From Candidatus Woesearchaeota archaeon (GTDB lineage: Archaea; Nanobdellota; Nanobdellia; Woesearchaeales; B72-G16), in assembly GCA_003650545.1 (NCBI GenBank), contig QMQO01000011.1, forward strand, positions 1 to 36,139: a stretch of 36,139 nucleotides of DNA. Direction: 5' to 3'. The notes beneath the pieces were generated by a model. It worked only from the letters and a program-made list of their open reading frames with translations. It was not told where the DNA came from and made no database searches. Made by a program: the position numbers and the translations under genes. Position 1 is the stretch's first letter. Each line of letters opens with the position of its first letter. Below, in pieces: positions 3,985 through 13,233 of the stretch.

Positions 3985-6900
3985 CTTACCACTTTAAATT
4001 CCCAACACCTTTGGCCTAAATCGTATTCAATTAGTTCTCCAGTGCTGTACATTAATTCCACACAAACCCTATATCTGCCAGGTTCATTTATCCTTACATT
4101 TTCCTGGTTAAATATTTGGTCTAATTTAACTAAGCTATTTTCTGGTACAGTTATATCCCTATTGGAAATGACATTTAGGTAGTTTGTCCATTGTGCACCT
4201 TGTTGTTTTTGAATTTTTATGTTTATCTTTCCTGAAAACCTATTTGTTCCAAGATTTTCTATTTTTGATTGTGGTCTATGAGCATAAAAACCAGAATGTT
4301 GGTTATCGTGCTGGAATATTGGCCAGTCTAAAGTTTCAGATTTTCCAAGTTCCCACGCATACACATAACCATCGCTTGCAGTAGCAATGATATCCAGCTT
4401 ATTGTTATAATCTATGTCAGCGAAATTTACTGATTTTACACCAGGCCAACCCATGCCTCTATAATAAGGCATGGTGTATTTTGGAAATCCTTCCATCACC
4501 ATTCCGTTATCGTCTAATAAGAAAATAGAATTTCCTCCACAGAACAATCCACAATATCCATGATCACCGAGTGTCCCAAACAATATTTCTGACTTACCAT
4601 CATTATCAACATCAGCTGCAGCTAATGTTGAGGTAGAATATTGCCACCAAATACCCGCAGAATCTCTCACAGGATTGAACACGTCTGTTTTATAGGGCCA
4701 TCCATCTACCACGGTTCCATCATGATTAAGGACATAAACAAGCGGAGGACTGTTTTTACGCCAGTAAGAAGGAATCCACATTGGGGATAATGTTAGTACA
4801 ACTTCTTTATAAGGGTCATCATCAACATTTGCTATTAATATATTAGTAACTTCATTATAATTAATGATATTAGCTGGTGGCCAGCCTTCCATTAAGCTGC
4901 CATCATGGTGATAAGCTATCACTTCGTCTGACTTAGGAGCAAATATTATTTCTAAGTCGCCATCATTATCCAAATCTCCAATGACTGGCTGAGAAACTCC
5001 AAAGAAAGGACCCCATGAAGAAATAGATGTTTCATTTGACCACAATAATTGTGCTTTATTGTTAAGAACTAAAATTCCTTTTTTTCCATTATTATTAGAG
5101 TAAGTTGCAATAATCTCATTTAATCCGTCATAGTTGATGTCACCAATTGCAATTCCATAAATAATTGCATGTTCTATATCTTCTGGACCTTCAAAAAGAT
5201 AAGGCCAACCCTGCATAACTGTCCCATCACTATGAACCACAGTAACTAATGGTTTGTAGAAATAACCCATCACTATTTCCTGCCCAGGATAATCAGGATC
5301 AATGTCTCCAATGGATAAAATATTCAAAGAACAACCGCCTTCAGGAGGTTTATATTTATCAGATTTATAAGAAAGTCCTGGTAATGAATTTCCTGCGACA
5401 TCAAAACCATAAATCCCCCAACTACGTCCTAATGTCAAGATTTCATTTTTCCCGTCATTGTTGATATCGGATATTGCTGAAGGAATTTTGTAATTTGATA
5501 TTGTAAGACTTTTTGGCCAACCTTCTCTTATTGTCCCATCAGCGTGCATTAAAGAGAGTCTCCTACCTATTTTGTCACCTATCTGGACCAAATAATCAAG
5601 TATTATCTCTTTGCCTTGATAATCTTCATCAATATCTGCAATTGTAGCTTTCACATATGTTGCTGTTATTTTACTCTCTATTTTTTTAGGCCAACCTGGC
5701 TTAAGTGTTGAATCAATAGTTACAGTTATTTGTTCTGTACTAATCTTATCATCCTGATGAAACACCTTAAGTCTAATATCATATTCACCACTTTCAAGAT
5801 TCTGTGTATTCCATGTAGCAAACAAACCCTCTGATAAACCTGTCAGTGAAATTCCATCGGATGACCAAGACTCTAAACCACTTCTAGAAAATTCTATAAC
5901 ATAGCTATTATAATCTCTTCTAATATAACCTTCTATTTCCACATTTTTATAAGGACCAAAAATCGAGCCTTCTCTTGGACTTGTTATTTTAATGTTATCT
6001 ATCTCAATCATAGCTTTATCTTCTATGACTTTTCCAGTAGTTGTGGTAAGTGTAAGCTTGATTGTATGATAACCATCTGAAAACTGTGTTGTATCAAAAC
6101 TATCTATCAAAATATTATTTGATGGAAAAACATTTGAATCTTTTATTAATACCCAATCAGACGGATTTCTTCCTTCACCTATTTCAATGTTATATTTTTG
6201 AAAATTTTTGCTAGATAAAGTTCCTTTTATTTGAACTGTTTCACTTATTCTTGAAACAGGGATGTCTATAAATGCAAACAAAGAAGGATCTTCAATCTCA
6301 AATACAGACTCGACATCAATAAGACCATGCCCTTGTTTTATTGATAAATCTCCAATGTAATTTGCAGATCTCATCAGAGCATTTTTTATATCATTTGGAC
6401 TCCAGTCAGGATGCACGTCTTTAACTAAAGCTGCAACACCTGCAACATGCGGAGCTGCCATTGATGTTCCTGAAATTGCCATATGCTTGCTATCAACGCA
6501 CCGATGTACATCTGGTCTAGCAGGGTCAAAATAATTATCATCAATCCCAAATGCAGTATCCCATTGTGCAGCACAAATCTCAACCCCTGGTGCAACAACA
6601 TCGGGTTTTATCAAACTTAAGCCATCAATGTCCCAAACAGGGCCTGTTGAACTGAAGCAAGGTATTTGGTCTATTTGCGTGTCAGTATCTATGCAAGAGC
6701 TATAACTCAAAGTCTCAAAATTACTCTTATAAGTTGCTCCGACAGTTATTGCTTTTCTTGCTGTCCCGGGACTACATATTGTTTCTATATCCGGGCCTGA
6801 GTTTCCAGCTGCAACTACTACAACCACACCTGCATCAACTGCGTTATCAACAGCAGTGCTTTCAGGATCATCTGGGCCACATTCGTCACTAGGAAATCCC

Positions 6901-8639
6901 TTGCAATAAGATCCTAAACTCATACTTATGATGTCAACATGATCAGAAAAATCTCCATCTTGATTAGGGTCAACTGCTCTCTCAATCGCTGCAATTATTG
7001 CGTTCATATTGCCAGTTCCATAGGCATTTAATGTTTTATAAGCATATATCTTTGCTTGAGGTGCAACTCCTTTCAACGTACCTTGGCCAGCAGCTATTGC
7101 TGCACAATGAGTGCCATGTCCGTTATCATCCATAGGATCTGAGTCTCCATTCACAAAATCGTAACCGTCTACAACTTTACAACCAGCCCCCATACAACCA
7201 CCAAGATCAGGATGATGATAATCCACACCAGTATCAATTACTGCAATCGTAATGTCTTTTCCTGTATAACCAAGACTCCAGCTATAATCAGCATTAATGT
7301 GCGGAACAGAACCCATTAAAGTTGCCTTAACCTCTAAATTTGGATAAACATCTTTTACCTCTCTTAACTTTTTGATTTCCTTAGCCTCCTCTCTAGTTAT
7401 GTCAAGAGCTAAACCATTAAACACCTTTTCATATTCTCCAAAAACCACAAGGGTGTTTCCTTGTTCCGAAAGATCTGCAACAGCACTACCAGTCACTAAG
7501 GTTTCTACTTTAGCCTTCTTTAATTTTTTTCTTATTTTATCCTTTATCTTTTGCCTATCTGACATTATTTGTTTTTTTTGTTTAGCAAGTTTTTTTGGAA
7601 CATCCTCACTTGAAGTTGCAAATATCTTGTAAACATATTTAATAGGGTTATAATCACTCATCGCTTCTATCTTTTGCTCATTCTTTTCAGCCAGTTTTTT
7701 TAATGAGACTTCTTTTTTAAGTAACGGTTCTCTTTTAAGTTCTACAATATAACCTTTTGGAGGCTGGACCTCGGGCAATGTTTCACCCAAAATGGCTACA
7801 GCTTCTTGTCCAGTTTCTTCACCATAATACATTTCAGGTGCAATGATTGACTCTTTTTGAAAGTTTGGCGTTACAGTCAACTCTGACCAGTTCCCTAAAT
7901 TTAACTTGCCTGGCTTCTCATAGAAAGTACCGTTAACATTATCTTCAGTATTTTTGTCTGGAGGATCGGTTAGTTTAATCTGTTCGTCTATAGAATACCT
8001 GTCCTTTAATGTTGCTATGAATACTCTTAATCCAGCCCCAAAGCATCCATCCAATAGTTCAACATCACTAATTAGCTCAGGAGAACAAAGTTGGTAACAT
8101 CCATACTTCTGTGCAAACTCAACGTAACAACTATCACGAGTATAACTATCTTTTATAAAGGTACAACCCCAAACGTAATTCAAAACATTCTCACAAATAT
8201 CTGCTACATAAGGAGCTGCTAATGTCTCCCTTTTATAACAAGCATCTTTCTCAGATTCTGGAACCACAGATTCACAAGTCCTATGAACATAGTTATAATA
8301 AGTGCAATCCTGTGGACAGATAGAATAATCCTCGTCTAGATCACACCTCTCATTCCCACACCAAGCACAATACTTCTCAGCACAATTTTTATAACTCAAA
8401 TCTGTTATTAGCCAGCCAGCATCCTGACATTGCTTTACTGTTTTAATGCTGCATTCATTAGTATCGTTGCTTGCAACTGTTGCTGGATCAAACTTAGTAC
8501 AACAAATATGACAATCAGGGCATGATTTAATACAATCCTTCTCAGCACCAGTACAAGGAGGCATCTCTTTAAATTCAACACAACCTGTAACTAGTATAGC
8601 AATTACAACAACAATCGCAATTAAATATTTTATTCGCAT
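3981..8639 (-). CDS. Subtilisin-like (S8) serine protease, predicted lipoprotein, with C-terminal FG-GAP/VCBS beta-propeller repeats
   Basis: 1552 aa; lipobox VTGC; I9-like propeptide segment; Asp (AVIDTGVDYHHPDL), His (DNGHGTHCAAIAAG), Asn (AAGNSG), Ser (SGTSMAAPHVAG); repeats such as SDINNDGKNEIL, GDINYDGLNEII, GDLDNDGDLEII, ADVDNDGKSEIL. Confidence 0.95.
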   Translation of the reverse strand: MRIKYLIAIVVVIAILVTGCVEFKEMPPCTGAEKDCIKSCPDCHICCTKFDPATVASNDTNECSIKTVKQCQDAGWLITDLSYKNCAEKYCAWCGNERCDLDEDYSICPQDCTYYNYVHRTCESVVPESEKDACYKRETLAAPYVADICENVLNYVWGCTFIKDSYTRDSCYVEFAQKYGCYQLCSPELISDVELLDGCFGAGLRVFIATLKDRYSIDEQIKLTDPPDKNTEDNVNGTFYEKPGKLNLGNWSELTVTPNFQKESIIAPEMYYGEETGQEAVAILGETLPEVQPPKGYIVELKREPLLKKEVSLKKLAEKNEQKIEAMSDYNPIKYVYKIFATSSEDVPKKLAKQKKQIMSDRQKIKDKIRKKLKKAKVETLVTGSAVADLSEQGNTLVVFGEYEKVFNGLALDITREEAKEIKKLREVKDVYPNLEVKATLMGSVPHINADYSWSLGYTGKDITIAVIDTGVDYHHPDLGGCMGAGCKVVDGYDFVNGDSDPMDDNGHGTHCAAIAAGQGTLKGVAPQAKIYAYKTLNAYGTGNMNAIIAAIERAVDPNQDGDFSDHVDIISMSLGSYCKGFPSDECGPDDPESTAVDNAVDAGVVVVVAAGNSGPDIETICSPGTARKAITVGATYKSNFETLSYSSCIDTDTQIDQIPCFSSTGPVWDIDGLSLIKPDVVAPGVEICAAQWDTAFGIDDNYFDPARPDVHRCVDSKHMAISGTSMAAPHVAGVAALVKDVHPDWSPNDIKNALMRSANYIGDLSIKQGHGLIDVESVFEIEDPSLFAFIDIPVSRISETVQIKGTLSSKNFQKYNIEIGEGRNPSDWVLIKDSNVFPSNNILIDSFDTTQFSDGYHTIKLTLTTTTGKVIEDKAMIEIDNIKITSPREGSIFGPYKNVEIEGYIRRDYNSYVIEFSRSGLESWSSDGISLTGLSEGLFATWNTQNLESGEYDIRLKVFHQDDKISTEQITVTIDSTLKPGWPKKIESKITATYVKATIADIDEDYQGKEIILDYLVQIGDKIGRRLSLMHADGTIREGWPKSLTISNYKIPSAISDINNDGKNEILTLGRSWGIYGFDVAGNSLPGLSYKSDKYKPPEGGCSLNILSIGDIDPDYPGQEIVMGYFYKPLVTVVHSDGTVMQGWPYLFEGPEDIEHAIIYGIAIGDINYDGLNEIIATYSNNNGKKGILVLNNKAQLLWSNETSISSWGPFFGVSQPVIGDLDNDGDLEIIFAPKSDEVIAYHHDGSLMEGWPPANIINYNEVTNILIANVDDDPYKEVVLTLSPMWIPSYWRKNSPPLVYVLNHDGTVVDGWPYKTDVFNPVRDSAGIWWQYSTSTLAAADVDNDGKSEILFGTLGDHGYCGLFCGGNSIFLLDDNGMVMEGFPKYTMPYYRGMGWPGVKSVNFADIDYNNKLDIIATASDGYVYAWELGKSETLDWPIFQHDNQHSGFYAHRPQSKIENLGTNRFSGKINIKIQKQQGAQWTNYLNVISNRDITVPENSLVKLDQIFNQENVRINEPGRYRVCVELMYSTGELIEYDLGQRCWEFKVVS

Positions 8640-10531
8640 TTTCTGAAATAATAGCCCTCAAAATTTTCCTTACATAAAAACGTTCCTGCAACAGGATCTG
8701 TTTTCTCTATTCGAATATATAAATAATCCTGATACTCGTTAACAGTATATGTATGGTCAGTCCAACCATCAACCGTTTTAACATTAAGCCCAGCTGCAAG
8801 ATCGCTTAACTGCAACAAGCTACCATCAGGCAACACTCTTGAAATACCATAATAAAGATAATTGTCATCATAGCCAGAAATAGATTGCGCTTCTTCAGGA
8901 TTAACATAGTTACAAAAATAATATGTACAAAGCAGACACACCCCTCCAATACAACTATAGCTTTGACCTTGTGGATCAGAGCCACACTCTACATCTGTTT
9001 GGCAGTTCTCTCCATGCATATCTTTGCAAGGAACTTTATCTGCACAATCTTGATCAGCGCAGTCTATAGCACCATCACAGTCGTCGTCTATATAATTATC
9101 ACAAATCTCTGCTACACCAGGATTAACAGCAGCAGTATTATCATCACAATCTGTATTATCATCTATATAACCAGCAGGTGCATCGCACGCCCTATTGCTT
9201 GCATCCGGATTACCATAATTATCTCCATCAGCATCTTCGTATGCTAGCGTTACACAGTCTACATTACAACTTGTTACACTGTCGTCACAATCGTTTCCTA
9301 AAGCACAGCCAAGACCATACCCATCACCATCACTATCCTGGCAGATTACAGCACAAGCAGCATCACCAGTGCAATCTGGATCGTCACAATCAACATCACC
9401 GTCGCAATCTTCGTCTATGTTGCCAATGCAAATCTCTGTTGGTGCAGCTACCCAATGACAGCCATCACACCTTTGCCCATCATATGGAATTCTACATTCT
9501 GTGCCAGAACACTCACAGGCAATACAAAAGCTACTACAATCGCTATCACCACAATCTGTTGATTCATCACAATCATTATCCTTACCATCGTCACAAACTT
9601 CTGCAACAGGCACCACAGCACCCTCACACTTACTCCATTTCCCTCCTGAACAAGTCTGGGTTCCCTTGCTACATTCGCCAATATCACTTCCACAGCTGCG
9701 CGTCTCTCCTTCATTCTCACAGCTTCCGAAATGGGTGAAGTCTTCTTCATCATTCACATAAGAAAATAACCCATAATAACTACCCTTCATCCCTTCACTC
9801 ACCCACTTATTAAAATAAAACCTTTCAAAAAAGTTAGGACCATATCCAGAGAAACTATAAGTTCCATTGGCTTTCATATCATCTATAAAACCTTCTCTAA
9901 CAGAATCTGCTACCTTTACGTTCAAATTCTTATTTATAACAAAACCCTCATGATCGACATAAAACTCACCACCTAGATGATTGCTGAATGTCCTGTCGGT
10001 AATACCGTTCATCACAAACATAGGATCCTTTATCCCAAATATCGACATGTATGTTGTAATATTGACATGCCTTGGCTCGTATTTGATATCAGAACTATCT
10101 AAACTGTAGTTAACCTCAACATCTATCTTTACAGACATAGAATTATTCAGATCTACATAAAGCTTGTTCTTCAATATCTCAAAATTTACTTCGACACCAA
10201 GAGGAATTCTAAATTCACTCAGTTTGGTTTCATAGTTGCCGATGCATTTAGAAATATTAGACTTTGCAAAATACAACATTTGAGATTCATTTTTAAACTG
10301 CGTATAAGCAATTGTATTAAAACTCTTAAAAGCACACATCCTAGTAACAGTAGCTGTATAATCTTTCATGTTAGCTATCAGATTATTCAAGCTAGCAACC
10401 TTGGTTTTTAGTACAGGAACTTCTGTTGCATATGGTTGGCTTGCCTGCATAGCTAAAAAGGCTATTATCAATAATGCAACTATAAAGATTGCTACAAGAC
10501 TAAAAAACACTGCTTTCTTGCTCAATGCCAT
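8630..10531 (-). CDS. Pilin-like N-terminus fused to MopE-type metal-binding repeats (candidate minor pilin/adhesin)
   Basis: 633 aa; MALSKKAVFFSLVAIFIVALLIIAFLAMQ; repeats VCDDGKDNDCDESTDCGDSDC, ICIGNIDEDCDGDVDCDDPDC, ICDNYIDDDCDGAIDCADQDC, plus DSDGDGYGLGC and DADGDNYGNP. Confidence 0.85.
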   Translation of the reverse strand: MALSKKAVFFSLVAIFIVALLIIAFLAMQASQPYATEVPVLKTKVASLNNLIANMKDYTATVTRMCAFKSFNTIAYTQFKNESQMLYFAKSNISKCIGNYETKLSEFRIPLGVEVNFEILKNKLYVDLNNSMSVKIDVEVNYSLDSSDIKYEPRHVNITTYMSIFGIKDPMFVMNGITDRTFSNHLGGEFYVDHEGFVINKNLNVKVADSVREGFIDDMKANGTYSFSGYGPNFFERFYFNKWVSEGMKGSYYGLFSYVNDEEDFTHFGSCENEGETRSCGSDIGECSKGTQTCSGGKWSKCEGAVVPVAEVCDDGKDNDCDESTDCGDSDCSSFCIACECSGTECRIPYDGQRCDGCHWVAAPTEICIGNIDEDCDGDVDCDDPDCTGDAACAVICQDSDGDGYGLGCALGNDCDDSVTSCNVDCVTLAYEDADGDNYGNPDASNRACDAPAGYIDDNTDCDDNTAAVNPGVAEICDNYIDDDCDGAIDCADQDCADKVPCKDMHGENCQTDVECGSDPQGQSYSCIGGVCLLCTYYFCNYVNPEEAQSISGYDDNYLYYGISRVLPDGSLLQLSDLAAGLNVKTVDGWTDHTYTVNEYQDYLYIRIEKTDPVAGTFLCKENFEGYYFRKCE

Positions 10532-12114: not shown

Positions 12115-12277
12115 CTTTTTTACAGGCAACATTTTATTCGTAAATAATTTAGTATATAATAATTTAGTATAATTATATAGTTTTTGGTTTTCTGTTTAGA
12201 CTATGTTAGTCAATCCGCCAGCTCTTCTGAAAGGAAAGATTAATAAATATTTATTCTTAACCTATAATTATGATTGC

Positions 12278-12387
12278 ATGAAACCTCGCGGTTTTATATT
12301 CCCCGCAGGAAATATAAAACGTTGAGGTGATAAAACATGCAATATGTAGGTTTAGACGTACATAAAAAATTCACCGCGAGGTTTCAT
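12278..12387. mobile_element. 110-bp palindrome-bounded element derived from an IS110-family insertion sequence
   Basis: Perfect 15-bp inverted repeat atgaaacctcgcggt (12278-12292) / accgcgaggtttcat (12373-12387); internal 10-bp hairpin gttttatatt/aatataaaac (12291-12320); gaggtgat RBS and ATG encoding MQYVGLDVHKKFT, an IS110-type transposase N-terminus. Confidence 0.65.
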
Positions 12388-12948
12388 AGATGGCAGAAGT
12401 TAAAATTTTTTGAAGGATATACAAGTGCAGATAAACCTGGCAAAAAAGAAACTACCTGCCCTACAATAACTTTGGTTAGAGACAAAAACTTTTTAATTGT
12501 TGTTGACCCTGGTGTTTTAGAAAGCCAAAATATTTTAGTTGATACATTAAAGAGAGAAGGCCTATCATTAGAAGATATAAATATAGTTTTCATAACACAT
12601 TCGCATATAGATCACTACAGAAATACAGGAATGTTTCCTAACGCAAAAGTAATTGAATATTATGGAGTGTGGGATAAAAACGAGGTGGAAGATAGGCAAA
12701 ATCAGCTTACTGAAGATATTAAAATTATAGAAACACCTGGACACAACTATACTAGTCTTACCCTCTTGGTCAAAACAGATATAGGGATCATAGCAATATG
12801 TGGAGATGTCTTTTGGAAAGAAAATTATCCTGAAATAGATAAGTATGCTGATGATCCTGAAAAATTAAAAAAAACCAGAAAAAATCTCTTAGAAATTTCA
12901 GATTATATAATTCCAAGTCATGCAGGTATGTTTAAAGTTAAAAAATAA
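12337..12948 (+). CDS. MBL-fold metallo-hydrolase with chimeric N-terminus (IS110 transposase start fused to a frameshifted MBL gene)
   Basis: 203 aa; FITHSHIDHYRNTG zinc motif, ETPGHNYTSLTLL, CGDVF; first ~13 codons are transposase-like; probable native ATG at 12390 reads MAEVKIF-stop. Confidence 0.75.
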   Translation: MQYVGLDVHKKFTARFHRWQKLKFFEGYTSADKPGKKETTCPTITLVRDKNFLIVVDPGVLESQNILVDTLKREGLSLEDINIVFITHSHIDHYRNTGMFPNAKVIEYYGVWDKNEVEDRQNQLTEDIKIIETPGHNYTSLTLLVKTDIGIIAICGDVFWKENYPEIDKYADDPEKLKKTRKNLLEISDYIIPSHAGMFKVKK

Positions 12949-12999: not shown

Positions 13000-13009
13000 G
13001 AAACCTCGC
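13000..13009. repeat. Third copy of the element-end core gaaacctcgc
   Basis: Same 10-mer as in the 12278-12292 repeat, 9 bp before the start of the duplicated MopE fragment. Confidence 0.5.
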
Positions 13010-13014
13010 TATTT

Positions 13015-13233
13015 TCAACCATCACCATCACTATCCTGGCAGATTACAGTACAAGCAACATCACCAGTGCAATCTGGATCGTCACAATCAACATCACCGT
13101 TGCAATCTTCATCTATGTAACCAGTGCAAATCTCTGCTTGTGCAACTACCCAATGACAGCCATCACACCCTTGCCACAGTTCTGACTTTGTGTTAAACCT
13201 TTCATCTACAGAACCAGAGCCATTTGCAATCAT
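13015..13233 (-). pseudogene. Truncated partial copy of the MopE-like gene
   Basis: 13019-13175 aligns without gaps to 9322-9478 (about a dozen mismatches by eye); encodes CDGCHWVVAQAEICTGYIDEDCNGDVDCDDPDCTGDVACTVICQDSDGDG then stop. Confidence 0.8.

Follow-up and report, generated by a model that had tools for sequence, protein, structure and literature searches.

The 36,139 nt of contig QMQO01000011.1 analysed here (the window; assembly GCA_003650545.1, a metagenome-assembled genome of the Woesearchaeales) carry a short mini-element with inverted repeats in front of a metallo-beta-lactamase (MBL)-fold gene. We interpret this mini-element, with a probability of about 0.8, as the internal-deletion derivative of an insertion sequence (IS) of the IS1111 group (IS110 family) that inserts between the A and the TG of the ATG of leaderless genes. 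What the sequences show directly is where the element sits, its ends and flanks, a promoter on either side, an empty site that matches, and its clade; the mode of start-site recognition is inferred. Within the literature searched, which excluded ISfinder, preprints and subscription papers, no description of such a target was found, and no IS110/IS1111 element was reported at a start codon, a leaderless start or a transcription start.

A search of same-order genomes with the right-end pattern gave further copies, with control matches almost nil, and left ends were then looked for in the genomes already carrying right ends. The copies span ten related genomes (G, with contigs C and loci L in our own labelling) and provide 18 left flanks from 8 genomes and 24 right flanks. 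Pattern matches in G275, G143, G186, G085, G070 and G286 were left out as chance or unproven. The exact right-end pattern had no match in the genome-contig set searched, viral contigs held no relatives of the element, Rfam returned no match for two loci bearing the right end, and over 378 genomes of the class the left-end pattern matched in its own genome only.

All 18 left flanks contain a TATA-like octamer starting at -29 to -31 from the A of the ATG, preceded in most by AA at -34/-33 (A-rich, like a B recognition element), and all have T or C at -1. Shuffled flanks gave a mean of 1.4 such boxes and a maximum of 6 (2000 runs), and only 19 of 110 ordinary open reading frame (ORF) starts have a TATA box at matching spacing (Fisher p=5e-12). 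Archaeal leaderless promoters whose +1 is the A of the ATG have this layout, start sites being predicted from TATA spacing, and the target is therefore the predicted leaderless transcription start. On the other side the element adjoins an ATG in 24 right flanks, and 20 of these ATGs open ORFs of at least 60 aa, compared with 98 of the window's 538 YATGs; the remaining four are the window copy (frameshift), ORFs of 36 and 37 aa, and one flank whose ORF begins 4 nt downstream. Pfam matches place the ATG at the gene start of aRF1, a class I tRNA synthetase (TyrRS-like), CutA1, a glycosyltransferase and others, and lipoproteins are also among the targets. An earlier description of the window, made from its letters alone (the sequence-only reading), had missed that a leaderless start codon is the normal target of this clade, so that the placement of the mini-element is the rule and not an accident.

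The aRF1 gene supplies the empty site. Sixteen congeners of G158 lack the element there, in most cases with a TATA box about 30 bp 5' of the ATG, and the joined flanks of G158 have the same length as the empty aRF1 site of G306, with 52 of 60 bases identical. The same G158 gene (L051) carries an intein-like insert (PF14890) directly 3' of GGQ in the catalytic motif, long frames also being present in L205 (G308). In front of the TyrRS-like gene of G337 (L083/L085, C74:16712-16769), the right end is tandemly duplicated as a 39-bp unit, giving two successive ATG-bearing right ends.

Full-length relatives of 1290-1347 bp occur in G168, G158, G307 and G020. The three of their transposases that were scanned all match PF01548 and PF02371 (DEDD_Tnp_IS110 and Transposase_20), and the start-targeting transposases form a single clade (support 99/97). 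The 15-bp subterminal repeats fall within the 7-17 bp of the IS1111 rule, and the element reaches 7 bp past the left repeat and 3 bp past the right one, as in the published IS1111 geometry (PMC11187229); flanks joined on this geometry give a clean empty site. In the relatives, sequence and consensus fold point to target segments in a noncoding region 3' of the transposase gene (tnp), a region deleted in the window copy. The left end of about 70 bp and the 15-bp repeats differ from the IS110 group proper (IS621-type), which has a long noncoding region upstream of tnp and repeats of 2-3 bp, the reverse of the present element on both counts; an RNA with two internal loops for target and donor (predicted in ours) and a core dinucleotide (TG here) are nonetheless common to these bridge-RNA elements and ours. 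With the IS1111 seekRNA elements ISEc11, ISKpn4 and ISPa11 it shares the DEDD transposase, the subterminal repeats with their 7-bp and 3-bp extensions, the noncoding region after tnp, a top-strand-complement segment before a bottom-strand-complement segment, and a promoter, here presumed, at the joined ends. Known IS1111 targets are, however, fixed sequences (attC, REP, a linear site), whereas the target here is defined by function, being a leaderless start codon 30 bp past a TATA box.

The window copy itself occupies about 12271-12390 (120 bp). The sequence-only reading had described a 110-bp unit ending 2 bp before the ATG; by the IS1111 rule the element instead ends inside the ATG and supplies its A. 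The exact 15-bp inverted repeats were correctly described (12278-12292 and 12373-12387), and the proposed IS110-type origin of a mini-element is confirmed by full-length relatives with IS110 domains and by sister copies in its own genome. There, the suggested search for other copies found left ends at the ends of contigs C24 and C9 (92% identity to the window unit over 118 bp) and right ends at the ends of C16 and C7. Given these recurrences on both sides the unit is not a chance palindrome, and their location at contig ends is expected if a repeated full-length IS breaks a short-read assembly. The central transposase was not found in the bin of the window genome. The parts are listed below; the flanking host promoter and the right-end promoter had both escaped the sequence-only reading.

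12240..12247 (+), host-promoter TATA-like box TTAATAAA, first base at -30 from A12270; a box common to all 18 left flanks
12270..12281 (+), left copy of the start codon (A from the host, TG from the element) at the predicted transcription start, opening a leader ORF ATG ATT GCA TGA (M-I-A-stop) also seen in other copies
12271..12390 (+), internally deleted IS1111-group element with 7-bp left extension TGATTGC and 3-bp right extension AGA (boundary rule, PMC11187229)
12278..12292 (+), left subterminal inverted repeat ATGAAACCTCGCGGT
12283..12328 (+), left-end hairpin, predicted to bury the transposase Shine-Dalgarno sequence in intact elements
12324..12331 (+), transposase Shine-Dalgarno sequence GAGGTGAT
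12337..12375 (+), 13 opening transposase codons MQYVGLDVHKKFT joined to the right end, the final codons being already right-end sequence
12361..12368 (+), right-end TATA-like box CATAAAAA, at -29 from ATG 12390
12364..12369 (+), deletion junction in an A run, left end ..CATAAAAAGTTT / right end ..ATGAAAAATTC, with 4-5 bp of microhomology
12373..12387 (+), right subterminal inverted repeat ACCGCGAGGTTTCAT, holding GAGGT (12378-12382) a short distance 5' of the native ATG

The copy thus joins left-end sequence up to ACATAAAAA with right-end sequence AAAAATTCACCGCG, and the deletion falls in the A run; all that is kept of the transposase is the 13 codons. Within the left end lies a second, imperfect hairpin (12283-12303/12308-12328). 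The deletion form is present only once in its genome and the mini form in G124 is unlike it, so that the element is not a miniature inverted-repeat transposable element in the sense of many copies moved in trans. That form in G124 (L048, C64, near 4092-4160) is an independent mini-element of about 70 bp without transposase; it too occupies a start codon preceded by a TATA box, and carries GAGG within a 14-bp hairpin. Yet another deletion form, L100 (G254 C63), runs from a truncated left end through ATGCAATCATAG, which is the left terminus in complement, into unrelated DNA. Just 3' of the MBL gene, GAAACCTCGC at 13000-13009 has the same letters as part of the left repeat and may be a chance match.

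The right end carries a promoter of its own. All 12 distinct right ends have a TATA-like box at -26 to -30 from the ATG (shuffle mean 2.0, maximum 8), weak in G000 and in one G254 variant, and their final base is A, so that a host TG is rebuilt into ATG. We infer that insertion exchanges promoters. Once the element is inserted, the host TATA box would drive the transposase, and the right-end box with its terminal A would rebuild a leaderless promoter and start codon for the host gene, so that even essential genes would tolerate insertion. In the circular form, the right-end box would precede A/TGATTGC as the presumed junction promoter, such promoters at joined ends being known for a few IS1111/IS110 elements (PMC11187229). 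The right-end GAGGT was first favoured as the main Shine-Dalgarno sequence rescuing the host gene, and was demoted because transcription from the right-end TATA box would begin 3' of this motif, leaving it a role in read-through RNA only. A role of the leader peptide as a conserved switch was rejected, the leader being 21 codons long in G254.

Six elements align in the noncoding region 3' of tnp into two hairpins with internal loops, a fold with modest covariation support (7 of 35 pairs). The putative guide has CAUCAU (top-strand complement; CAACAU in G178) before AUGAUU (top-strand match), the order reported for IS1111 seekRNAs, and its segments AUGAUU and GAUAGAUG are invariant (AAUAGAUG or GAUAGAUG, with AUAGAUG fixed). 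Its match to the target covers only about YATGR, unlike that of known IS1111 elements, and copies within one genome have unlike flanks. In other archaeal IS1111-like elements (L054, L065, L061, L060, L114, L115, L121) the repeats are of the GAATTC type and the noncoding region contains a left-target guide immediately 5' of GATTG, which in several of them matches the left flank over 5-7 extra bases. We tentatively suggest that the transposase is guided by a seekRNA reduced to the start codon and locates its site via the open promoter complex, through melted DNA at +1 or through contact with TBP, TFB or RNA polymerase; on this equally tentative view the element would be a start-site-directed prokaryotic integrator, trading promoters with the gene it targets. 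Yeast Ty3, a retroelement whose integration at transcription start sites is steered by Pol III factors, is unrelated and offers an analogy only. An alternative of similar probability is that the guide reads only about YATGR, that insertion is scattered without active promoter recognition, and that selection spares only copies on leaderless start codons, which would do least harm as the host gene is still expressed. The short guide-flank match (about YA/TG plus 0-3 bases, versus 5-7 bases in several archaeal relatives that use other targets) would suit such an origin. However, a TATA box stands at the required spacing in only 17 of 256 YATGR sites of the window and in 5 of the 28 intergenic ones, no copy among the 18 occupies a start or intergenic site without such a box, and leadered genes should tolerate insertion at the ATG too.

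In the window, the deletion has consequences for the gene behind the element, where two frames meet:

12337..12948 (+), open 203-aa chimera with MBL-fold domain PF00753 and an HSHIDH motif
12390..12413 (+), native MBL start ATG GCA GAA GTT AAA ATT TTT TGA, ended by the six-T run 12406-12411

Homologues start M-A-E-V-K/H-V-L, M(A/T)EVxVLxEG or similar, and ATG 12390 is therefore the native MBL start, as the sequence-only reading had proposed. It was right, too, that this frame (MAEVKIF) then hits a stop, the run being six T and out of phase, and that the 13-codon transposase start gives an open frame of 203 aa (ORF 12337-12948, beginning MQYVGLDVHKKFTARFHRWQKLKFFEGYTS), the only open frame containing the full MBL domain. 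Its claim that five T would restore the native frame holds as to phase; eight T are also in phase and fit the homologue length better (MAEVKVLVEGY). What that reading had missed is that the deletion, not the insertion, created the transposase-MBL fusion. At the A-run microhomology it would have taken out the guide-RNA region and the bulk of the transposase, leaving a host-promoter RNA with the transposase Shine-Dalgarno sequence and ATG; the six-T run sets this ATG in frame with the MBL body. RNA from the right-end promoter would begin at the native ATG and stop after 7 codons. Rickettsia palindromic elements are likewise mobile remnants in frame with host genes (PMC10969869), but they insert within ORFs and the window element replaces a start.

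Whether the chimera is made depends on the T run. If the run is an artefact of sequencing or assembly, translation would begin at ATG 12390 behind the right-end promoter in an undamaged native frame, and the chimera would be illusory. The homologue starts, the wholly intact frame 3' of the run and a right-end TATA box and GAGGT that serve this ATG speak for such an error, which we nevertheless consider unlikely: contig breaks at repeats suggest a short-read assembly, in which six-base runs are rarely misread. Should the run be real, the predicted mini-element fold, in which the two repeats pair completely, would favour the chimera, as the native Shine-Dalgarno sequence (GAGGT, 12378) is buried (unpaired 0.00) and that of the transposase is unpaired at 0.56, compared with 0-0.17 in intact left ends. 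The chimera is then the likeliest form of the MBL protein, at roughly even odds. A real run could also be crossed by +1 frameshifting at UUU UGA from ATG 12390, as in bacterial prfB, where a stop codon likewise comes directly after the slippery codon. The phase is right, UUU UGA A at 12408-12414 needing +1 for the open frame, but no such event is known here and the native Shine-Dalgarno sequence is predicted to be buried and outside the leaderless transcript, making this very improbable. That the gene is a recent pseudogene, with its native start out of frame and a degraded mobile element in front, is also improbable, given some 180 intact codons and an intact metal-site motif. Further 3', a short ORF at 13015-13233 (-) resembles part of the Cys/Asp-rich protein at 8630-10531 (-) (DVDCDDPDCTGD..VICQDSDGDG) as a partial duplicate.

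Several points weigh against our interpretation of the element and its fusion. The start sites are predictions from TATA spacing, not mapped 5' ends. Left and right flanks pair only in G168, G158, G307 and G020 and in two mini-elements, because the majority of copies sit at contig ends. The T run is read from this single genome, and the chance of the chimeric frame being open is about 0.09, so that its openness is only weakly beyond chance.

RNA-guided IS110/IS1111 recombinases are under development as genome-writing tools, and a clade that chooses leaderless start sites while keeping the gene usable shows how insertion in essential genes can be tolerated. Insertions of this kind offer a map, at sequence level, of where leaderless promoters lie in uncultured archaea, and the window copy shows that simple deletion of such an element can alter the start of a gene.
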